A stretch of 64,000 nt of DNA from Eubacteriaceae bacterium (GCA_017531485.1 JAFXKY010000072.1:1-64000); one strand, 5' to 3'. Positions 8,544 to 14,115 are shown, numbered from the stretch's first letter. Made by a program: numbers and translations. Notes: generated from the letters alone by a model not told the origin.

Positions 8544-8595
8544 AATTATAAAAAATCACCTCACAGTTAAGCCTGTGAGGTGATTTTTTATAATT
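8544..8595. terminator. Bidirectional terminator with 23-bp stem
   Basis: A perfect 23-bp stem (8544-8566 / 8573-8595) with a 6-base loop (TTAAGC) carries A and T runs on both arms. It ends the rightward regulator operon and the leftward ABC operon, and it overlaps the stop codon of the last ABC gene. Confidence 0.9.
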
Positions 8596-9268
8596 AATGA
8601 ACGTGATCTTCATCACCGTGTTCGTGGTCATGAATATGCGTATGAGTATGTGAATGGACGTTATTGAGCTTTGTGAGGTCAACGATCCTTGTGCAGACCC
8701 TCTTTGCAAGCGACATATTGTGGGTTATGATCATCATCCCGAGATTTCTCTCTTCGGAGATCTCCATGAGAAGATGCCATATCTGCGCCTGCGTTATTAC
8801 GTCAAGCATCGTAGTGATCTCGTCACAAATAAGGAATTTTGTTTCGGGACCGAGGACCCTTGCGATACAGAATCTCTGAAGCTCCCCTCCCGAAAGCTCT
8901 GACGGCCAACGGGTCAGCCATGATTTTTCAATTCCCATTTTTCTGAGCAGTTCGTCATCCGGCTGCCACGCTTCATTCAATATCTTATCCATTCTGTGAC
9001 GCGGGTTGACTGCCTGTTCCGGATGCTGATACACCATCTGCACAGGGCAATATCCCGTCATGGGAAGTGGCTTTCCGTCAAGGAGAACTTTTCCTTCTTC
9101 CGGAAGGCGATATCCCGAGAGGATCTTTGCAAGAGTGCTTTTGCCGTATCCTGACGGAGCAACGATGCCGACTCTTTCGCCGCTGTTAACTTCGAGGGTA
9201 ATATCTTTCAGAACAAACGGTCCGTCATCAGTATAACGGAAGCTTATATTTTCTGCTTTAAGTTGCAT
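8594..9268 (-). CDS. Nickel/peptide-type ABC ATPase with histidine-rich C-terminal tail
   Basis: A 224-residue ABC ATPase (NikE/OppF-like position in the operon). Walker A is APSGYGKST, the signature is LSGGELQRF and Walker B is FLICDEITT. The last 23 residues hold nine histidines (HSHTHTHIHDHEHGDEDHVH) and would face the cytoplasm, fitting nickel or zinc binding. It is shorter than typical OppF because the usual C-terminal extension is replaced by this tail. It overlaps the upstream ATPase gene by 11 bases and is the last gene of the operon. Transport of nickel is inferred from the tails and the nearby nickel enzyme AcsB, not proven. Confidence 0.88.
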   Translation of the reverse strand: MQLKAENISFRYTDDGPFVLKDITLEVNSGERVGIVAPSGYGKSTLAKILSGYRLPEEGKVLLDGKPLPMTGYCPVQMVYQHPEQAVNPRHRMDKILNEAWQPDDELLRKMGIEKSWLTRWPSELSGGELQRFCIARVLGPETKFLICDEITTMLDVITQAQIWHLLMEISEERNLGMMIITHNMSLAKRVCTRIVDLTKLNNVHSHTHTHIHDHEHGDEDHVH

Positions 9269-10187
9269 GAACGCACCTTACCTTTCCGCCGCGCAGATCC
9301 CTCATGGGAATCTCTCCGGCACATTCATCATCCCGATACGGACAACGGTCCGCAAACAGACACCCGCTCGGGAGATTTCCCGCATACGGCTGCGTTCCTT
9401 CGATGGGTTTAAATTTCTTCTGCGGAAGAGCATCGACAAATGCTGCGCTGTACGGGTGTCTTAAAAAGCCTCGTCCCATGATAAAGTCAAGGGTAGATGC
9501 TATCTCAACGACCGTTCCCGCATAAAATACAGCGATCCTGTCCGCTACTTCAAAAGCGAGGTCGATGTCGTGAGTTATCATGAGAACTGCCGTACCTTTG
9601 TCTGCAAGCTCCCTGAAGTTGTTCAGCGTTTCCATAGCCATTTCAACATTAAGCCCCGGAGTAGGTTCGTCGGCGATGATAAGTTTAGGTTCTTCCATAA
9701 CTGCGGAAGAGATGAGAACTCGTCTTGCCATACCGCCTGACAGCTGGAAAGGATAGAGAGTATCGACTCTTTCATCAAGATGATACCTGTCAAAGACTTC
9801 TCTCTGACGCTCTTTATTGCCATAGACTCCAATTACCTGCTTATCCACATGCATAAGCGGATCAAGATAATCAACAGACTGCGGAATAAAAGCGATGTCC
9901 CTGCCGAGAAGCTCTTTTACATACTTATCATCAAGCTCCTTGCCGCAATATTCAATCTTTCCGCCGACCTTCGCGTTTTTGGGGAGAATGTGAAGGATGC
10001 TGTGAGCAAGAAGGCTCTTTCCCGAACCGGATGAGCCGACGACTGCCACGATCTCCCCTTCCTTTACGTCGATGGAAAGTTTGTGTATAACTTCAAGATC
10101 TGTCTTTTTGAACGCACCTTTCTGATACATATTAAATGCAACAGTAAGGTCTTCAACATTCAGAACTGTCTTTTTTTCTTCTGACAT
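9258..10187 (-). CDS. Nickel/peptide-type ABC ATPase (NikD/OppD-like)
   Basis: A 309-residue ATPase with Walker A VGSSGSGKS, signature LSGGMARRV and Walker B LIIADEPT. The C-terminal oligopeptide-type extension carries four cysteines (GCLFADRCPYRDDECAGE and later RCVHA). Such cysteines bind an iron-sulfur cluster in some relatives. It would form the ATPase heterodimer with the following gene and power the two permeases upstream. It lies eight bases after the second permease, with an AGGAGG-like site. No histidine tail is present on this subunit. Confidence 0.88.
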   Translation of the reverse strand: MSEEKKTVLNVEDLTVAFNMYQKGAFKKTDLEVIHKLSIDVKEGEIVAVVGSSGSGKSLLAHSILHILPKNAKVGGKIEYCGKELDDKYVKELLGRDIAFIPQSVDYLDPLMHVDKQVIGVYGNKERQREVFDRYHLDERVDTLYPFQLSGGMARRVLISSAVMEEPKLIIADEPTPGLNVEMAMETLNNFRELADKGTAVLMITHDIDLAFEVADRIAVFYAGTVVEIASTLDFIMGRGFLRHPYSAAFVDALPQKKFKPIEGTQPYAGNLPSGCLFADRCPYRDDECAGEIPMRDLRGGKVRCVHAT

Positions 10188-10195
10188 ACTTCCTC

Positions 10196-11056
10196 CTATT
10201 CGTTTCCGCTTTGCGGATTCCAGAGTTTTTTGAGGTTGTCACCGATGACATCAAAGAGAACAACCGCCACAAGAAGCATCAGCCCCGGGAATACTGCGAG
10301 CCACCATTTCCCCGTCGCGAGATAATCCATACTTTCCGAAAGGATTACGCCGATGGCGGGCATTTCCTTGGGAAGTCCGAATCCGAGGAATGTGACGCTT
10401 GCTTCGTGCATGATCGCGTGCGGGAAAAGAAGGATGAGTCCGATGACGTATGACGGGATGACGTGCGGAAGAATGTGCGTAGCCGCAACCTGCCATTTTG
10501 TCTTGCCCATTTTATAAGCCGCCTGAACGTACTGTGAAGAACGCACCTGCATTACTTCTGCCCTGACGATCCTCGTAAGGCTCGGCCAGTGAGTGAAGAT
10601 TACCGCAAGAGTAACGCCGTTAACACCCTTTCCGAGCATGAATGAAATGAGGATGAGAAGAACCAGATGCGGAAGCCCCTGACAAAGGTCAACGCACCAG
10701 TTCACGAATTTATCCACCCATCCGCCGAACACTGCCGACGCAACGCCCATGAAAAGCGCGATGAATGAAGAAAACAGCGATGCGAGTACGCCGATTATAA
10801 GGCTGTTTGAAAGCGCCTTTATACAACGGCTGAACATATCCCTTCCCATGAAGTCCGTTCCGAACGGGTGATCAAAATTCGGAGAAACGAATTTTGCATC
10901 GTAATTTACCGCATAGCTTTCGGGATCCATGAAAAGCCCCCATATACCTACACCGACGAGATATACCACCGCGAAAATCACCATCATGGTGACGAATGTT
11001 TTTCTGTTGAATTCGAAACGTTTTTTATCAGTGTGAGTGTGCGTGTGTGTGCTCAT
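10196..11056 (-). CDS. ABC permease (NikC/DppC-like) with N-terminal His-Thr tail
   Basis: A 286-residue permease of the DppC type, with a hydrophilic N terminus, a first helix at about 22-42 and five more helices, and the EAA-like loop near DLCQGLPHLVLL and ARIVRAEV-type sequence. It begins MSTHTHTHTDKKRFEFNRKT, a cytoplasmic His-Thr run absent from ordinary family members. Its first 29 bases overlap the end of the NikB-like gene in another frame, and the shared CA-rich DNA encodes histidines in both. The overlap suggests translational coupling. The predicted substrate is nickel (inference). Confidence 0.87.
   Translation of the reverse strand: MSTHTHTHTDKKRFEFNRKTFVTMMVIFAVVYLVGVGIWGLFMDPESYAVNYDAKFVSPNFDHPFGTDFMGRDMFSRCIKALSNSLIIGVLASLFSSFIALFMGVASAVFGGWVDKFVNWCVDLCQGLPHLVLLILISFMLGKGVNGVTLAVIFTHWPSLTRIVRAEVMQVRSSQYVQAAYKMGKTKWQVAATHILPHVIPSYVIGLILLFPHAIMHEASVTFLGFGLPKEMPAIGVILSESMDYLATGKWWLAVFPGLMLLVAVVLFDVIGDNLKKLWNPQSGNE
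11028..11056 (-). other. Dual-frame coding overlap giving His-rich ends of both permeases
   Basis: On the minus strand a CA-dinucleotide run is read as HTHAHSH-stop in the upstream permease frame and as STHTHTHT at the start of the next permease. One stretch of DNA therefore supplies a histidine tail to two partner subunits. Confidence 0.9.
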
Positions 11057-12038
11057 ATGTTATTACACCCTCCTTGATCCTCGGGTCAAATACTCCGTAA
11101 AGGACATTTGCCATTAAGTTTCCGGCAAATACGAATACCGCACTGCATACGGCGATGCCCAACAAAAGCGGCACATCTCCGTTTACGGCTGCCGCTGTGG
11201 TGGCAGTACCGATCCCCGGATATGAAAATACGTTTTCAGCAAGAGCCATTCCGCCGAATAGTTCGCTGAAAGATGCGAACTGTACGGTTATTGCGGGAAG
11301 CGCGATATTTCTGATGACATGACGAAGAACAATCTGTTTTTCGTTTTCACCTCTTGCCCTTGCGTAAAGAATAAAGTCCGAATTGATGATCTCGATGAGC
11401 TTCTGTCTTGTGTAAAGCATTATATCGCTCATGCTGATTATTGACAACGTTATTACCGGAAGCGCCATATGATATAATCTGTCCCAGAAAGTTACTTCAT
11501 TCGCCGGTTTTCCGAGAGGAACCGCCATTCCTATGGGGAACCATTTCAGCTCGACGGCAAAGATGACCAGAACGAGAAGACCTATCCAGAATGTAGGTGC
11601 AGATTTGACCATAAGACAGAAATATTTCGTGATCCTGTCAAACCATCCGCCTTCCCTCATTCCGGAAATAATTCCGACGACAAATCCCAATAAGCCCGAG
11701 ATGACCCAGGTGCAGGCCATAAGGCCGAAAGAGTATGAGAATCTTTCTGAAATGACATCTTTTACGGGACGTTTGTAAGTTATTGAATCTCCCCAGTCGC
11801 CGCGGACAATGTTTCCTACCCAGCTCATGAATCTTTCTGCCGGCGGATCATAAAGCCCCCAGTATTCCGCGATCTCATCCCTCGCTTCCTGCGAGAGAGT
11901 GGATTCGGGCCCTACATAAGATGTAAGGGGATCGATCGGAGAGTTTATTACGAGGAAGAAGGCTATTATACTCACCGCTATGAGCAAAAGCGCCATTCTG
12001 ATACTCTCCGAAATGACATTTTTCATTTTTTTGTTCAT
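11028..12038 (-). CDS. ABC permease (NikB/DppB-like) with C-terminal His tail
   Basis: A 336-residue permease: N-terminal helix (LLLIAVSIIAFFLVINSPIDP, the DppB entry motif), a loop containing WGLYDPPAERFMSWVGNIV, and five further helices with the EAA-type motif ARARGENEKQIVLRHVIRN. The C terminus, GVITYEHTHAHSH, would be cytoplasmic and adds a metal-binding tail. The histidine codons lie in the 29-base overlap with the next permease gene. A hairpin separates it from the binding-protein gene upstream. Confidence 0.88.
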   Translation of the reverse strand: MNKKMKNVISESIRMALLLIAVSIIAFFLVINSPIDPLTSYVGPESTLSQEARDEIAEYWGLYDPPAERFMSWVGNIVRGDWGDSITYKRPVKDVISERFSYSFGLMACTWVISGLLGFVVGIISGMREGGWFDRITKYFCLMVKSAPTFWIGLLVLVIFAVELKWFPIGMAVPLGKPANEVTFWDRLYHMALPVITLSIISMSDIMLYTRQKLIEIINSDFILYARARGENEKQIVLRHVIRNIALPAITVQFASFSELFGGMALAENVFSYPGIGTATTAAAVNGDVPLLLGIAVCSAVFVFAGNLMANVLYGVFDPRIKEGVITYEHTHAHSH

Positions 12039-12065
12039 ATTTGCTCCACTTTCCTTAACCCAAGA

Positions 12066-12085
12066 TACACCGCATGTGCGGTGTA
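12066..12085 (-). other. Intra-operon hairpin after the binding-protein gene
   Basis: A perfect 9-bp stem (TACACCGCA / TGCGGTGTA) with a two-base loop and no T run. It may stabilise the 3' end of the binding-protein message, raising it over the permeases. Confidence 0.55.
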
Positions 12086-12131
12086 CCTTTATTGTTAATT
12101 TTTCAGACTAAAAATGTTTCAGACGGATTTC

Positions 12132-13733
12132 TTATTTTACATATGTCCAGTCTGCCATGTTGTTGATGATCGGCGCACCGTGTCCGTGTGGGTGCGGTAT
12201 CTGAGTATCCATTGAGATATCGATTCGGTCGCTGATGAAGAATCCGTGACGGATATTTACGATGTAAATGTACGGATATTCCGCGTTTGCGACATCCTGA
12301 GCAGCGATCCAGTTTTTAGTTGCTTCTTCCTGAGTTTCGGCTGTAATTGCCGCATTGATATAAGCATCAACTTCCGGATTGTCATATCCGCCTACGTTAT
12401 CATATGTACCAACCAGGAAGCGGTCTGAAGAGTAAAGTGACTGAATTACTGTCGGTGAGAACTGTCCCCAACCCCAGATTACGCCGTTTGTATACTGAAG
12501 CTGTTCAATTTCGCCCCATGTTCCTGTCTTGGCCGTAATCTCGATTCCAAGCTCTTTAGCTTCTTCACCGAGAGCAGAAAGAAGTCTGTAACGGTCATCG
12601 TCACCGCTTGCAGCAATAACATCGATAGCACATCTGAGACCGTCTTTTTCTCTGATGCCGTCGCCGTCCGTATCGATCCAGCCAGCAGCCTCAAGGATCC
12701 GTTTAGCTTCTTCCTTGCGGTTATCTTCATAACCTGTTTTGCTCGTCCATGTGAGGTTTTCAGTGTAGTTTTCTGTAGCGCGTCCTACTCCGTTGAGCGC
12801 GTTGTTGATGATTGTCTGACGATCAATTCCGATCGCGATTGCTTTTCTTACGTTCACATCACATGTAACGTCGTTTCCGACTGTGATGTCTTTACCGGTT
12901 ACAGGATGTTTGATCGTTCTTACAGGCTGAGTTACGAGTGAAAGGTTTCTTACATCCATTGTGTCGAATTCCACATATTTCATACCTTCAATCTTTTCGT
13001 CAGCATAGCTTACGCTTACCATTACGATGTCAAGGTCCCCTGATTTAGCAGCTGCAAATGCGGCTGACTGATCCATGTATACAAGAGTAACTCTCTTGAT
13101 ATCCGGAGCTGTTCCGTGATAATTTTCATTTGCTTCAAGAATGATCTGCTGGTTTGTGTCGTACTGAACAACTTTATATGCGCCTGTTCCGACAGGCATT
13201 GTATCGAAAAGTGTTGAATCATAACTGTCGCTCGGTACGATCTGAAGCATTGCCGTTACATCGAAGAACGGTGAATAAGGTTTTGTGAGCTTGAATTCAA
13301 CTTCGTAATCGTTAAGCTTTGTTACGCTTTCAAGACTTGAAAGATCAACATTTGAGTTGAGCGCCTGATTGTTCTTTACTGTTTCGTATGTAAACACTAC
13401 GTCGTCTGCGTTGAAATCTGTTCCGTTTGAGAATTTAATTCCCTGATGAAGCTTGAAGCGGTAAGTTGTTGCATCAACCATATCCCAGCTTTCAGCAAGA
13501 CATCCAACGTATTCGGAATCCGGATTTGCCATCATAAGAGCTTCGCACACAAACGGATAACCGTATGACATACTGCCTTTGATAGGATCTAAACTGTCAT
13601 CAAAGAGCGATGTTCCGGCCGAAACTATGATACCGTTTTTGCTTTCATCTTTGTTTCCGCATCCTGTAAATGTTCCCAAGAGCATTACCGCCACGAGTGC
13701 GATGCAGAGTATTTTCTTTATTTTGTTATTCAT
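12132..13733 (-). CDS. SBP family 5 (nickel/peptide) binding lipoprotein
   Basis: A 533-residue lipoprotein with lipobox TGC at about residue 25 and the family 5 solute-binding fold (SWDMVDATTYRFKLHQGIKF, NADDVVFTYE, RKAIAIGIDRQ, AGWIDTDGDGIREKDG). Near the C terminus the sequence IPHPHGHGAPI contributes three histidines that could ligand a metal. It is the extracellular receptor of the downstream permeases. The family takes peptides, nickel or nickel chelates; the histidine content of the operon favours nickel. The first gene of the operon, encoding a His-rich small protein, lies 17 bases upstream. Confidence 0.88.
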   Translation of the reverse strand: MNNKIKKILCIALVAVMLLGTFTGCGNKDESKNGIIVSAGTSLFDDSLDPIKGSMSYGYPFVCEALMMANPDSEYVGCLAESWDMVDATTYRFKLHQGIKFSNGTDFNADDVVFTYETVKNNQALNSNVDLSSLESVTKLNDYEVEFKLTKPYSPFFDVTAMLQIVPSDSYDSTLFDTMPVGTGAYKVVQYDTNQQIILEANENYHGTAPDIKRVTLVYMDQSAAFAAAKSGDLDIVMVSVSYADEKIEGMKYVEFDTMDVRNLSLVTQPVRTIKHPVTGKDITVGNDVTCDVNVRKAIAIGIDRQTIINNALNGVGRATENYTENLTWTSKTGYEDNRKEEAKRILEAAGWIDTDGDGIREKDGLRCAIDVIAASGDDDRYRLLSALGEEAKELGIEITAKTGTWGEIEQLQYTNGVIWGWGQFSPTVIQSLYSSDRFLVGTYDNVGGYDNPEVDAYINAAITAETQEEATKNWIAAQDVANAEYPYIYIVNIRHGFFISDRIDISMDTQIPHPHGHGAPIINNMADWTYVK

Positions 13734-13749
13734 ATAAATCCTCCTTTAT

Positions 13750-14115
13750 TTACATAAGATCCTGAGCTTTTCTGAAAGCTTCATTTGCCTTGTTGAGAAG
13801 CCCGATGGCTTCCTCGAGAGCATTTGCCACGTCTTCTTTACCGTGAGCTCTTGCTTTTTCAACCCACTCCTCATAGCTTCCCACATGATCTTCACCGTGA
13901 TGAATCCAGTGCTTCACAAGGGCTTTGAGCGTTGCCATGTCTTTTGCGGAATCGTGCAGGTTTACTTCTTCGTGGGAATGCTCCGCTCCATCGTGAGTGT
14001 GTTCGTGGGTATGTTCATGTGTGTGTTCAATACCGTCATGTGTGTGAGTATGAGCGTGCTTGTGGTCATGATGTCCGTCAGAATCATGATGACCTTCGTG
14101 TAAAAATATTTTCAT
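13750..14115 (-). CDS. Small histidine-rich protein, probable nickel-binding chaperone
   Basis: A 121-residue protein with 19 histidines in its first 56 residues, mostly in HTH, HEH and HDH steps (HDHKHAHTHTHDGIEHTHEH). The C-terminal half is a predicted helical domain (WIHHGEDHVGSYEEW, then NALEEAIGLLNKANEAF). There is no signal peptide, so it should be cytoplasmic. Leading the ABC operon, it could collect or buffer metal brought in by the importer, similar in idea to the His-rich parts of HypB or SlyD, but I do not recognise its family. ATG at 14115 follows a GAGAGAGGAT-like site. Confidence 0.85.
   Translation of the reverse strand: MKIFLHEGHHDSDGHHDHKHAHTHTHDGIEHTHEHTHEHTHDGAEHSHEEVNLHDSAKDMATLKALVKHWIHHGEDHVGSYEEWVEKARAHGKEDVANALEEAIGLLNKANEAFRKAQDLM

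Follow-up and report, generated by a model that had tools for sequence, protein, structure and literature searches.

A Ynt/Nik-like importer operon with histidine tails and a leading CooJ-like gene in a Eubacteriaceae bacterium

The stretch JAFXKY010000072.1:1-64000 of Eubacteriaceae bacterium (GCA_017531485.1), a bacterium related to acetogens, carries a six-gene operon, H-A-B-C-D-E, running from 14115 to 8594 with all genes on the minus strand. The operon joins a small His-rich protein (H) to the complete gene set of a family-5 ATP-binding cassette (ABC) importer, i.e., by Pfam, one SBP_bac_5 lipoprotein, two BPD_transp_1 permeases and two ABC ATPases. The window is this whole 64,000-nt stretch, to which all coordinates refer. 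Reading of its open reading frames (ORFs) recovered the six co-oriented genes at the place and on the strand given by an original prediction for this DNA. The genes and features are as follows:

13750..14115, minus strand: H, first gene of the operon, a CooJ-like His-rich protein of 121 aa without a Pfam match
13948..14115, minus strand: N-terminal His tract of H, 19 His in 56 residues
13885..13911, minus strand: HWIHHGEDH in H, an H(W/F)x2Hx3H motif within the CooJ-like helical domain
12132..13733, minus strand: A, family-5 substrate-binding lipoprotein (Pfam SBP_bac_5, 4e-72), closest solved relative YntA
12177..12194, minus strand: HPHGHG close to the C-terminus of A, a motif found across the importer family
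11028..12038, minus strand: B, permease (Pfam BPD_transp_1) with the C-terminal tail EHTHAHSH
10196..11056, minus strand: C, permease (Pfam BPD_transp_1) with the N-terminal tail MSTHTHTHTD
11028..11056, minus strand: overlap of B and C, 29 bp, CA-rich, encoding the His tails of the two permeases, each in its own frame
9258..10187, minus strand: D, ATPase with ABC_tran and oligo_HPY domains, without a His tail
8594..9268, minus strand: E, short ATPase (ABC_tran) with a His-rich C-terminal tail
8597..8665, minus strand: C-terminal tail of E, 9 His in 23 residues
30926..37189, minus strand: carbon monoxide dehydrogenase/acetyl-CoA synthase (CODH/ACS) genes acsB, acsE, acsC and acsD with a CooC-like ATPase, about 17 kb from the operon

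Chance is excluded as a source of the His enrichment, binomial tests at the window His frequency of 0.0172 giving P values of 7e-20 (H), 6e-6 (B), 4e-4 (C) and 9e-11 (E). In 80 other loci, the tail thresholds of B, C and E were reached by 1, 1 and 0, respectively, of 1,031 long ORFs. The original prediction had counted 19 His in the first 56 residues of H and 9 in the last 23 of E, both correctly, and had placed tails on nearly every part of the system, which holds for B, C and E but not for the ATPase D. The HPHGHG of the lipoprotein, also listed there, is indeed present near the C-terminus of A but does not belong to the tail pattern, PHGH-type motifs being present in most orthologous importers. 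In the class of type I importers, the permease and ATPase ends that bear the tails are cytosolic. The two permease tails had been taken as independent; instead, both amount to one genetic event, because the single CA-rich overlap encodes them in different frames, as GAG CAC ACA CAC GCA CAC TCA CAC TGA (EHTHAHSH-stop) in the frame of B and as ATG AGC ACA CAC ACG CAC ACT CAC ACT (MSTHTHTHT) in the frame of C. The start of C at 11056 is credible, since it is preceded by an AAGGAGG ribosome-binding site and no other in-frame start occurs before the permease core; five Lys/Arg lie within the first 19 residues of C.

Orthologous A-E importers were compared at 10 loci obtained by a search of relatives and 80 named loci, mostly from Bacillota. 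Their permease B is 46-69% identical to that of the window, and none of the 90 loci has a His tail (B 0/80 and C 0/79 at the named loci); five E orthologs flagged for His contain scattered residues in ordinary sequence and no tail. Tails together with a cooJ gene in the importer operon were found only in the window species and in G001, the sole other genome of its genus. Between these two species, the tail of E keeps all nine of its His, five via synonymous codon changes, and H keeps 22 of 24, eight with a synonymous change (15 of 16, 5 via synonymous changes, in the first part of the tract). Such retention despite synonymous change, seen in one species pair, has the look of selection for His, and these residues appear constrained.

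The conserved domain of H comprises its last 66 residues; a single-sequence search detected it in 35 of 101 relatives and a profile in 39, nearly all homologs carrying the pattern HWxxHxxxH. CooJ is a known chaperone that serves CO-fixing enzymes with nickel. CooJ proteins reportedly share H(W/F)X2HX3H together with a variable His tract, as Alfano et al. are said to have described in their 2019 CooJ structure paper, and the equivalent HFLDHVEGH was seen directly in the sequence of CooJ from Rhodospirillum rubrum (RrCooJ, 6HK5). When the H-family profile was compared with the PDB, 6HK5 was retrieved at E = 0.02, with the whole hairpin domain aligned and HFLDHVEGH lying under the motif, and hhalign gave the pair a probability of 66%. 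The designed proteins 7n3t and 8e55 ranked above CooJ, but their matches were attributed to His tags or coiled coils and discounted. A phmmer search of the PDB with H alone returned only a chance match to ferritin, the profile being needed to find RrCooJ, and neither Pfam nor NCBIfam holds a model matching H. AlphaFold2 predicted the CooJ-like domain as a two-helix hairpin (helices 3-37 and 41-67; predicted local distance difference test, pLDDT, 97), for which Foldseek returned generic rubrerythrin and CHMP hairpins, none significant, the fold being too simple to inform. RrCooJ is, like H, small and His-rich with a helical domain, but it is encoded with cooS and cooT, whereas H is encoded with an importer. 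Outside the family of the window (f1), cooT—assigned by Pfam PF10133—neighbours the CooJ-like gene in 22 of 23 loci, in several with DUF3842 in between, and the R. rubrum operon carries cooC, cooT and cooJ (PMC6006190). In our view, this position beside cooT, comparable to that in R. rubrum, speaks strongly for a CooJ identity of the H family.

The family also tracks acetyl-CoA synthase. Among 391 genomes drawn across the class, the CooJ-like domain is present in 19, AcsB in 21 and both in 18 (hypergeometric P = 5e-27, a value that ignores shared ancestry, although the 18 genomes span seven families). Within the 101 relatives, AcsB is present in all 39 genomes with the CooJ-like domain, and four have AcsB without it, namely three with weak AcsB matches and one genome that is 72% complete. 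In genomes of an apparently Acetobacterium/Eubacterium type, the gene order is acsD-acsC-acsE-acsA-cooC-acsB-cooJ, with the cooJ-like gene directly after acsB. Moreover, G022 encodes an in-frame fusion of 973 aa (L047 7697-10618) in which a CooJ-like protein is joined to the N-terminus of a second AcsB, suggesting a role of CooJ for acetyl-CoA synthase in addition to CODH; the surrounding genes keep the Acetobacterium-type order, so this looks like a fusion of adjacent genes. The window species itself encodes two AcsB, CODH, CooC and CooT in a genome about 95% complete, in which no [NiFe]-hydrogenase was found. The link of CooJ to CODH is already known in outline, CooJ having been reported as missed by standard annotation and as occurring in one-carbon-linked CODH operons (PMC13056359), while our literature search found no link of CooJ to an importer operon. 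A related case may be hp of C. autoethanogenum (CAETHG_1604), a His-rich protein gene that adjoins CooT, borders the Wood-Ljungdahl cluster and has homologs in E. limosum and A. woodii; its deletion slowed growth in rich medium, left growth in minimal medium unaffected and lowered AcsB (PMC10230548). Although it was not identified as CooJ in that study, we infer from its position and description that hp belongs to the H family.

Several further CooJ-like genes were observed. A second one in the genome of the window species (L032 3887-4186, G000:C23; 99 aa), with a counterpart in G001 (L034 5921-6205), has no evident nickel genes nearby, and the same holds for the other CooJ-like loci in the family of the window. 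A short paralog of 72-75 aa, with HWxxHxxxH but no His tract, follows cooT-DUF3842 in L042, L044, L038, L040 and L043, where long and short forms are paired. In G176, a protein with 38 His in 168 residues and no CooJ domain is encoded shortly before cooJ-cooT (L090 8350-8856). In many acetogen-type loci, cooT and cooJ are separated by DUF3842 (PF12953), for which no paper was found; in seven others it is encoded near a nickel importer or lar (L044 9933-10355, L127 10034-10447, and L038, L042, L081, L082, L157, L160, L196, L198, L203 and L204, for both settings together). DUF3842 is a candidate nickel-homeostasis protein.

Concerning the substrate of the importer, the best solved relative of A is YntA, the nickel-binding protein of Yersinia (PDB 4OFL; E 1e-66, full-length alignment, residues 46-531), and the operon resembles YntABCDE as a five-component family-5 ABC importer; it differs in its membrane-anchored lipoprotein, its cytoplasmic His tails and its leading CooJ-like gene. 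The component set also equals that of NikABCDE of E. coli, whose proteins lack such tails, and the NCBIfam NikA, NikB, NikC, NikD and NikE models all match, each of the five proteins staying far below the curated equivalog cut-offs. The curated Opp/Dpp cut-offs are not reached either (Opp4B 227 vs 450 bits, Opp4C 187 vs 350 bits, and others), and since neither set is attained, "Ynt/Nik-like" is the proper name. Near the 90 orthologous importer loci we found nikR at 8, lar at 7 (LarC and LarA, assigned by Pfam), hyp at 3 (hypA/B), CODH at 1 and CooT at 1. At the lar-adjacent loci (L125-L128, L168, L198 and L203), this proximity suggests that the importers may provide the metal that lactate racemase carries in its nickel-pincer cofactor. 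The original prediction would have fallen had other genomes shown no association with nickel enzymes; an association was found, both with AcsB and with nikR, lar and hyp neighbours. Its link between this operon and the nickel demand of CODH/ACS is thus well supported, on a much stronger basis than was claimed at the time, H being CooJ-like and tracking AcsB.

We regard it as probable, at about 0.72, that the operon encodes a nickel importer of the Ynt/Nik type together with a dedicated CooJ-type chaperone, the tails passing nickel to H for CODH/ACS. Nickel, or a nickel chelate, would bind the lipoprotein A, cross through the permeases B and C driven by the ATPases D and E, and enter the cytosol beside the cluster of His tails on B, C and E. 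At the channel exit, the tails would most likely hold it at low affinity and pass it by exchange to H, at its His tract and its HWxxHxxxH site; together with CooC and CooT, H would then deliver it to carbon monoxide dehydrogenase and acetyl-CoA synthase. Judged from sequence, the tail-based hand-off to H is plausible, and the co-encoding of the importer with a CooJ relative suggests that imported nickel may be passed directly to the machinery that builds CODH/ACS. A comparable arrangement has been proposed for Clade B Ni-CODHs, which have His-rich termini and are accompanied by NitT/TauT ABC transporters, the importer being hypothesised to supply nickel to the His-rich region (PMC6344411); there, however, it is the enzyme that bears the His regions, and the transporter is of another family, whereas here they are on the importer and the chaperone. 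In a bolder form, which we think rather less probable than its negation, nickel would be channelled, the tails forming a landing site at the inner mouth where CooJ docks and from which it carries nickel to acetyl-CoA synthase without cytosolic release, both permease tails having arisen at once from a single CA-repeat at the gene overlap.

Several observations weigh against this interpretation. The tails and the linkage of cooJ to the importer are confined to two species, and the other orthologs work without them. The similarity of the H family to RrCooJ is statistically weak, at an E value that an unrelated designed protein slightly betters, and the His tract of H is N-terminal, before the domain, whereas that of RrCooJ is C-terminal. 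At the window locus cooT is not adjacent but lies on another contig of the same genome (C26), and the second CooJ-like copy of this genome is located elsewhere, away from nickel genes. Finally, the Nik cut-offs of NCBIfam are missed.

The main rival to hand-off keeps the nickel importer and the CooJ-type chaperone but gives the tails another role, i.e., to buffer or sense nickel, to slow transport once the cytosol is replete (trans-inhibition), or to store the metal. This would suit their position on components that gate transport, namely the permeases and one ATPase, and it has a parallel in E. coli ZnuC, an importer ATPase that likewise ends in a cytosolic His cluster (IYRHHHNHRHD). ZnuC belongs to a zinc importer of another family and has no adjoining chaperone gene, and it shows that a tail of this kind on an ATPase does not depend on such a chaperone being present. 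In the operon studied here, however, a chaperone gene heads the importer operon only in the two tail-bearing species, which favours a functional pairing, and we consider sensing or buffering unlikely, if the strongest of the alternatives.

A neutral origin of the permease tails, as a by-product of the CA-repeat at the junction of B and C that would leave only the E tail and H with a function, appears to us improbable. A CA repeat reads as His-Thr in any frame, so that a single repeat yields both tails, and the orthologs lack permease tails, which only two species possess. On the other hand, the overlap lies within a 36-nt run (11027-11062) that G001 shares unchanged, no other identical run of the 5.5-kb operon being as long, in a setting where the DNA of B and C is about 80% identical between the two species, although dual coding may also constrain it.

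An importer for cobalt or zinc is very improbable: His tails also bind these metals, but the orthologs have nickel-specific genes as neighbours (nikR, lar, hypA/B), and the enzyme tracked by the chaperone is a nickel enzyme. Marginally less probable still is an ordinary importer of oligopeptides or His-peptides, for although the best NCBIfam scores of the permeases are with Opp4 models, these fall far below the cut-offs, the lipoprotein is closest to YntA and the orthologs occur with nikR, lar and hyp.

As to expression, a GC-rich inverted repeat, ACACCGCACATGCGGTGT, lies between A and B (window 12039-12131), also forms in G001 with a different loop, and is a possible mRNA stem separating the expression of the lipoprotein from that of the permease. 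An Rfam scan of the window returned only a tRNA, which leaves no known riboswitch to account for the operon. A reading of the His-codon-rich ORF H as a leader peptide for histidine attenuation was rejected, the domain of H being conserved and having homologs in many other operons.

The nickel idea of the original prediction was therefore right in direction, and its hand-off path is a good and testable hypothesis. A CooJ relative encoded with an importer whose cytosolic tails are proposed to bind metal makes a concrete, small system for transfer from importer to chaperone. Through the identification of CooJ, the His-rich gene hp of acetogens, so far unexplained, gains a proposed identity that can be tested. 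CODH/ACS is the enzyme pair of the Wood-Ljungdahl pathway, and the operon bears on the route that nickel takes from the importer to these enzymes.

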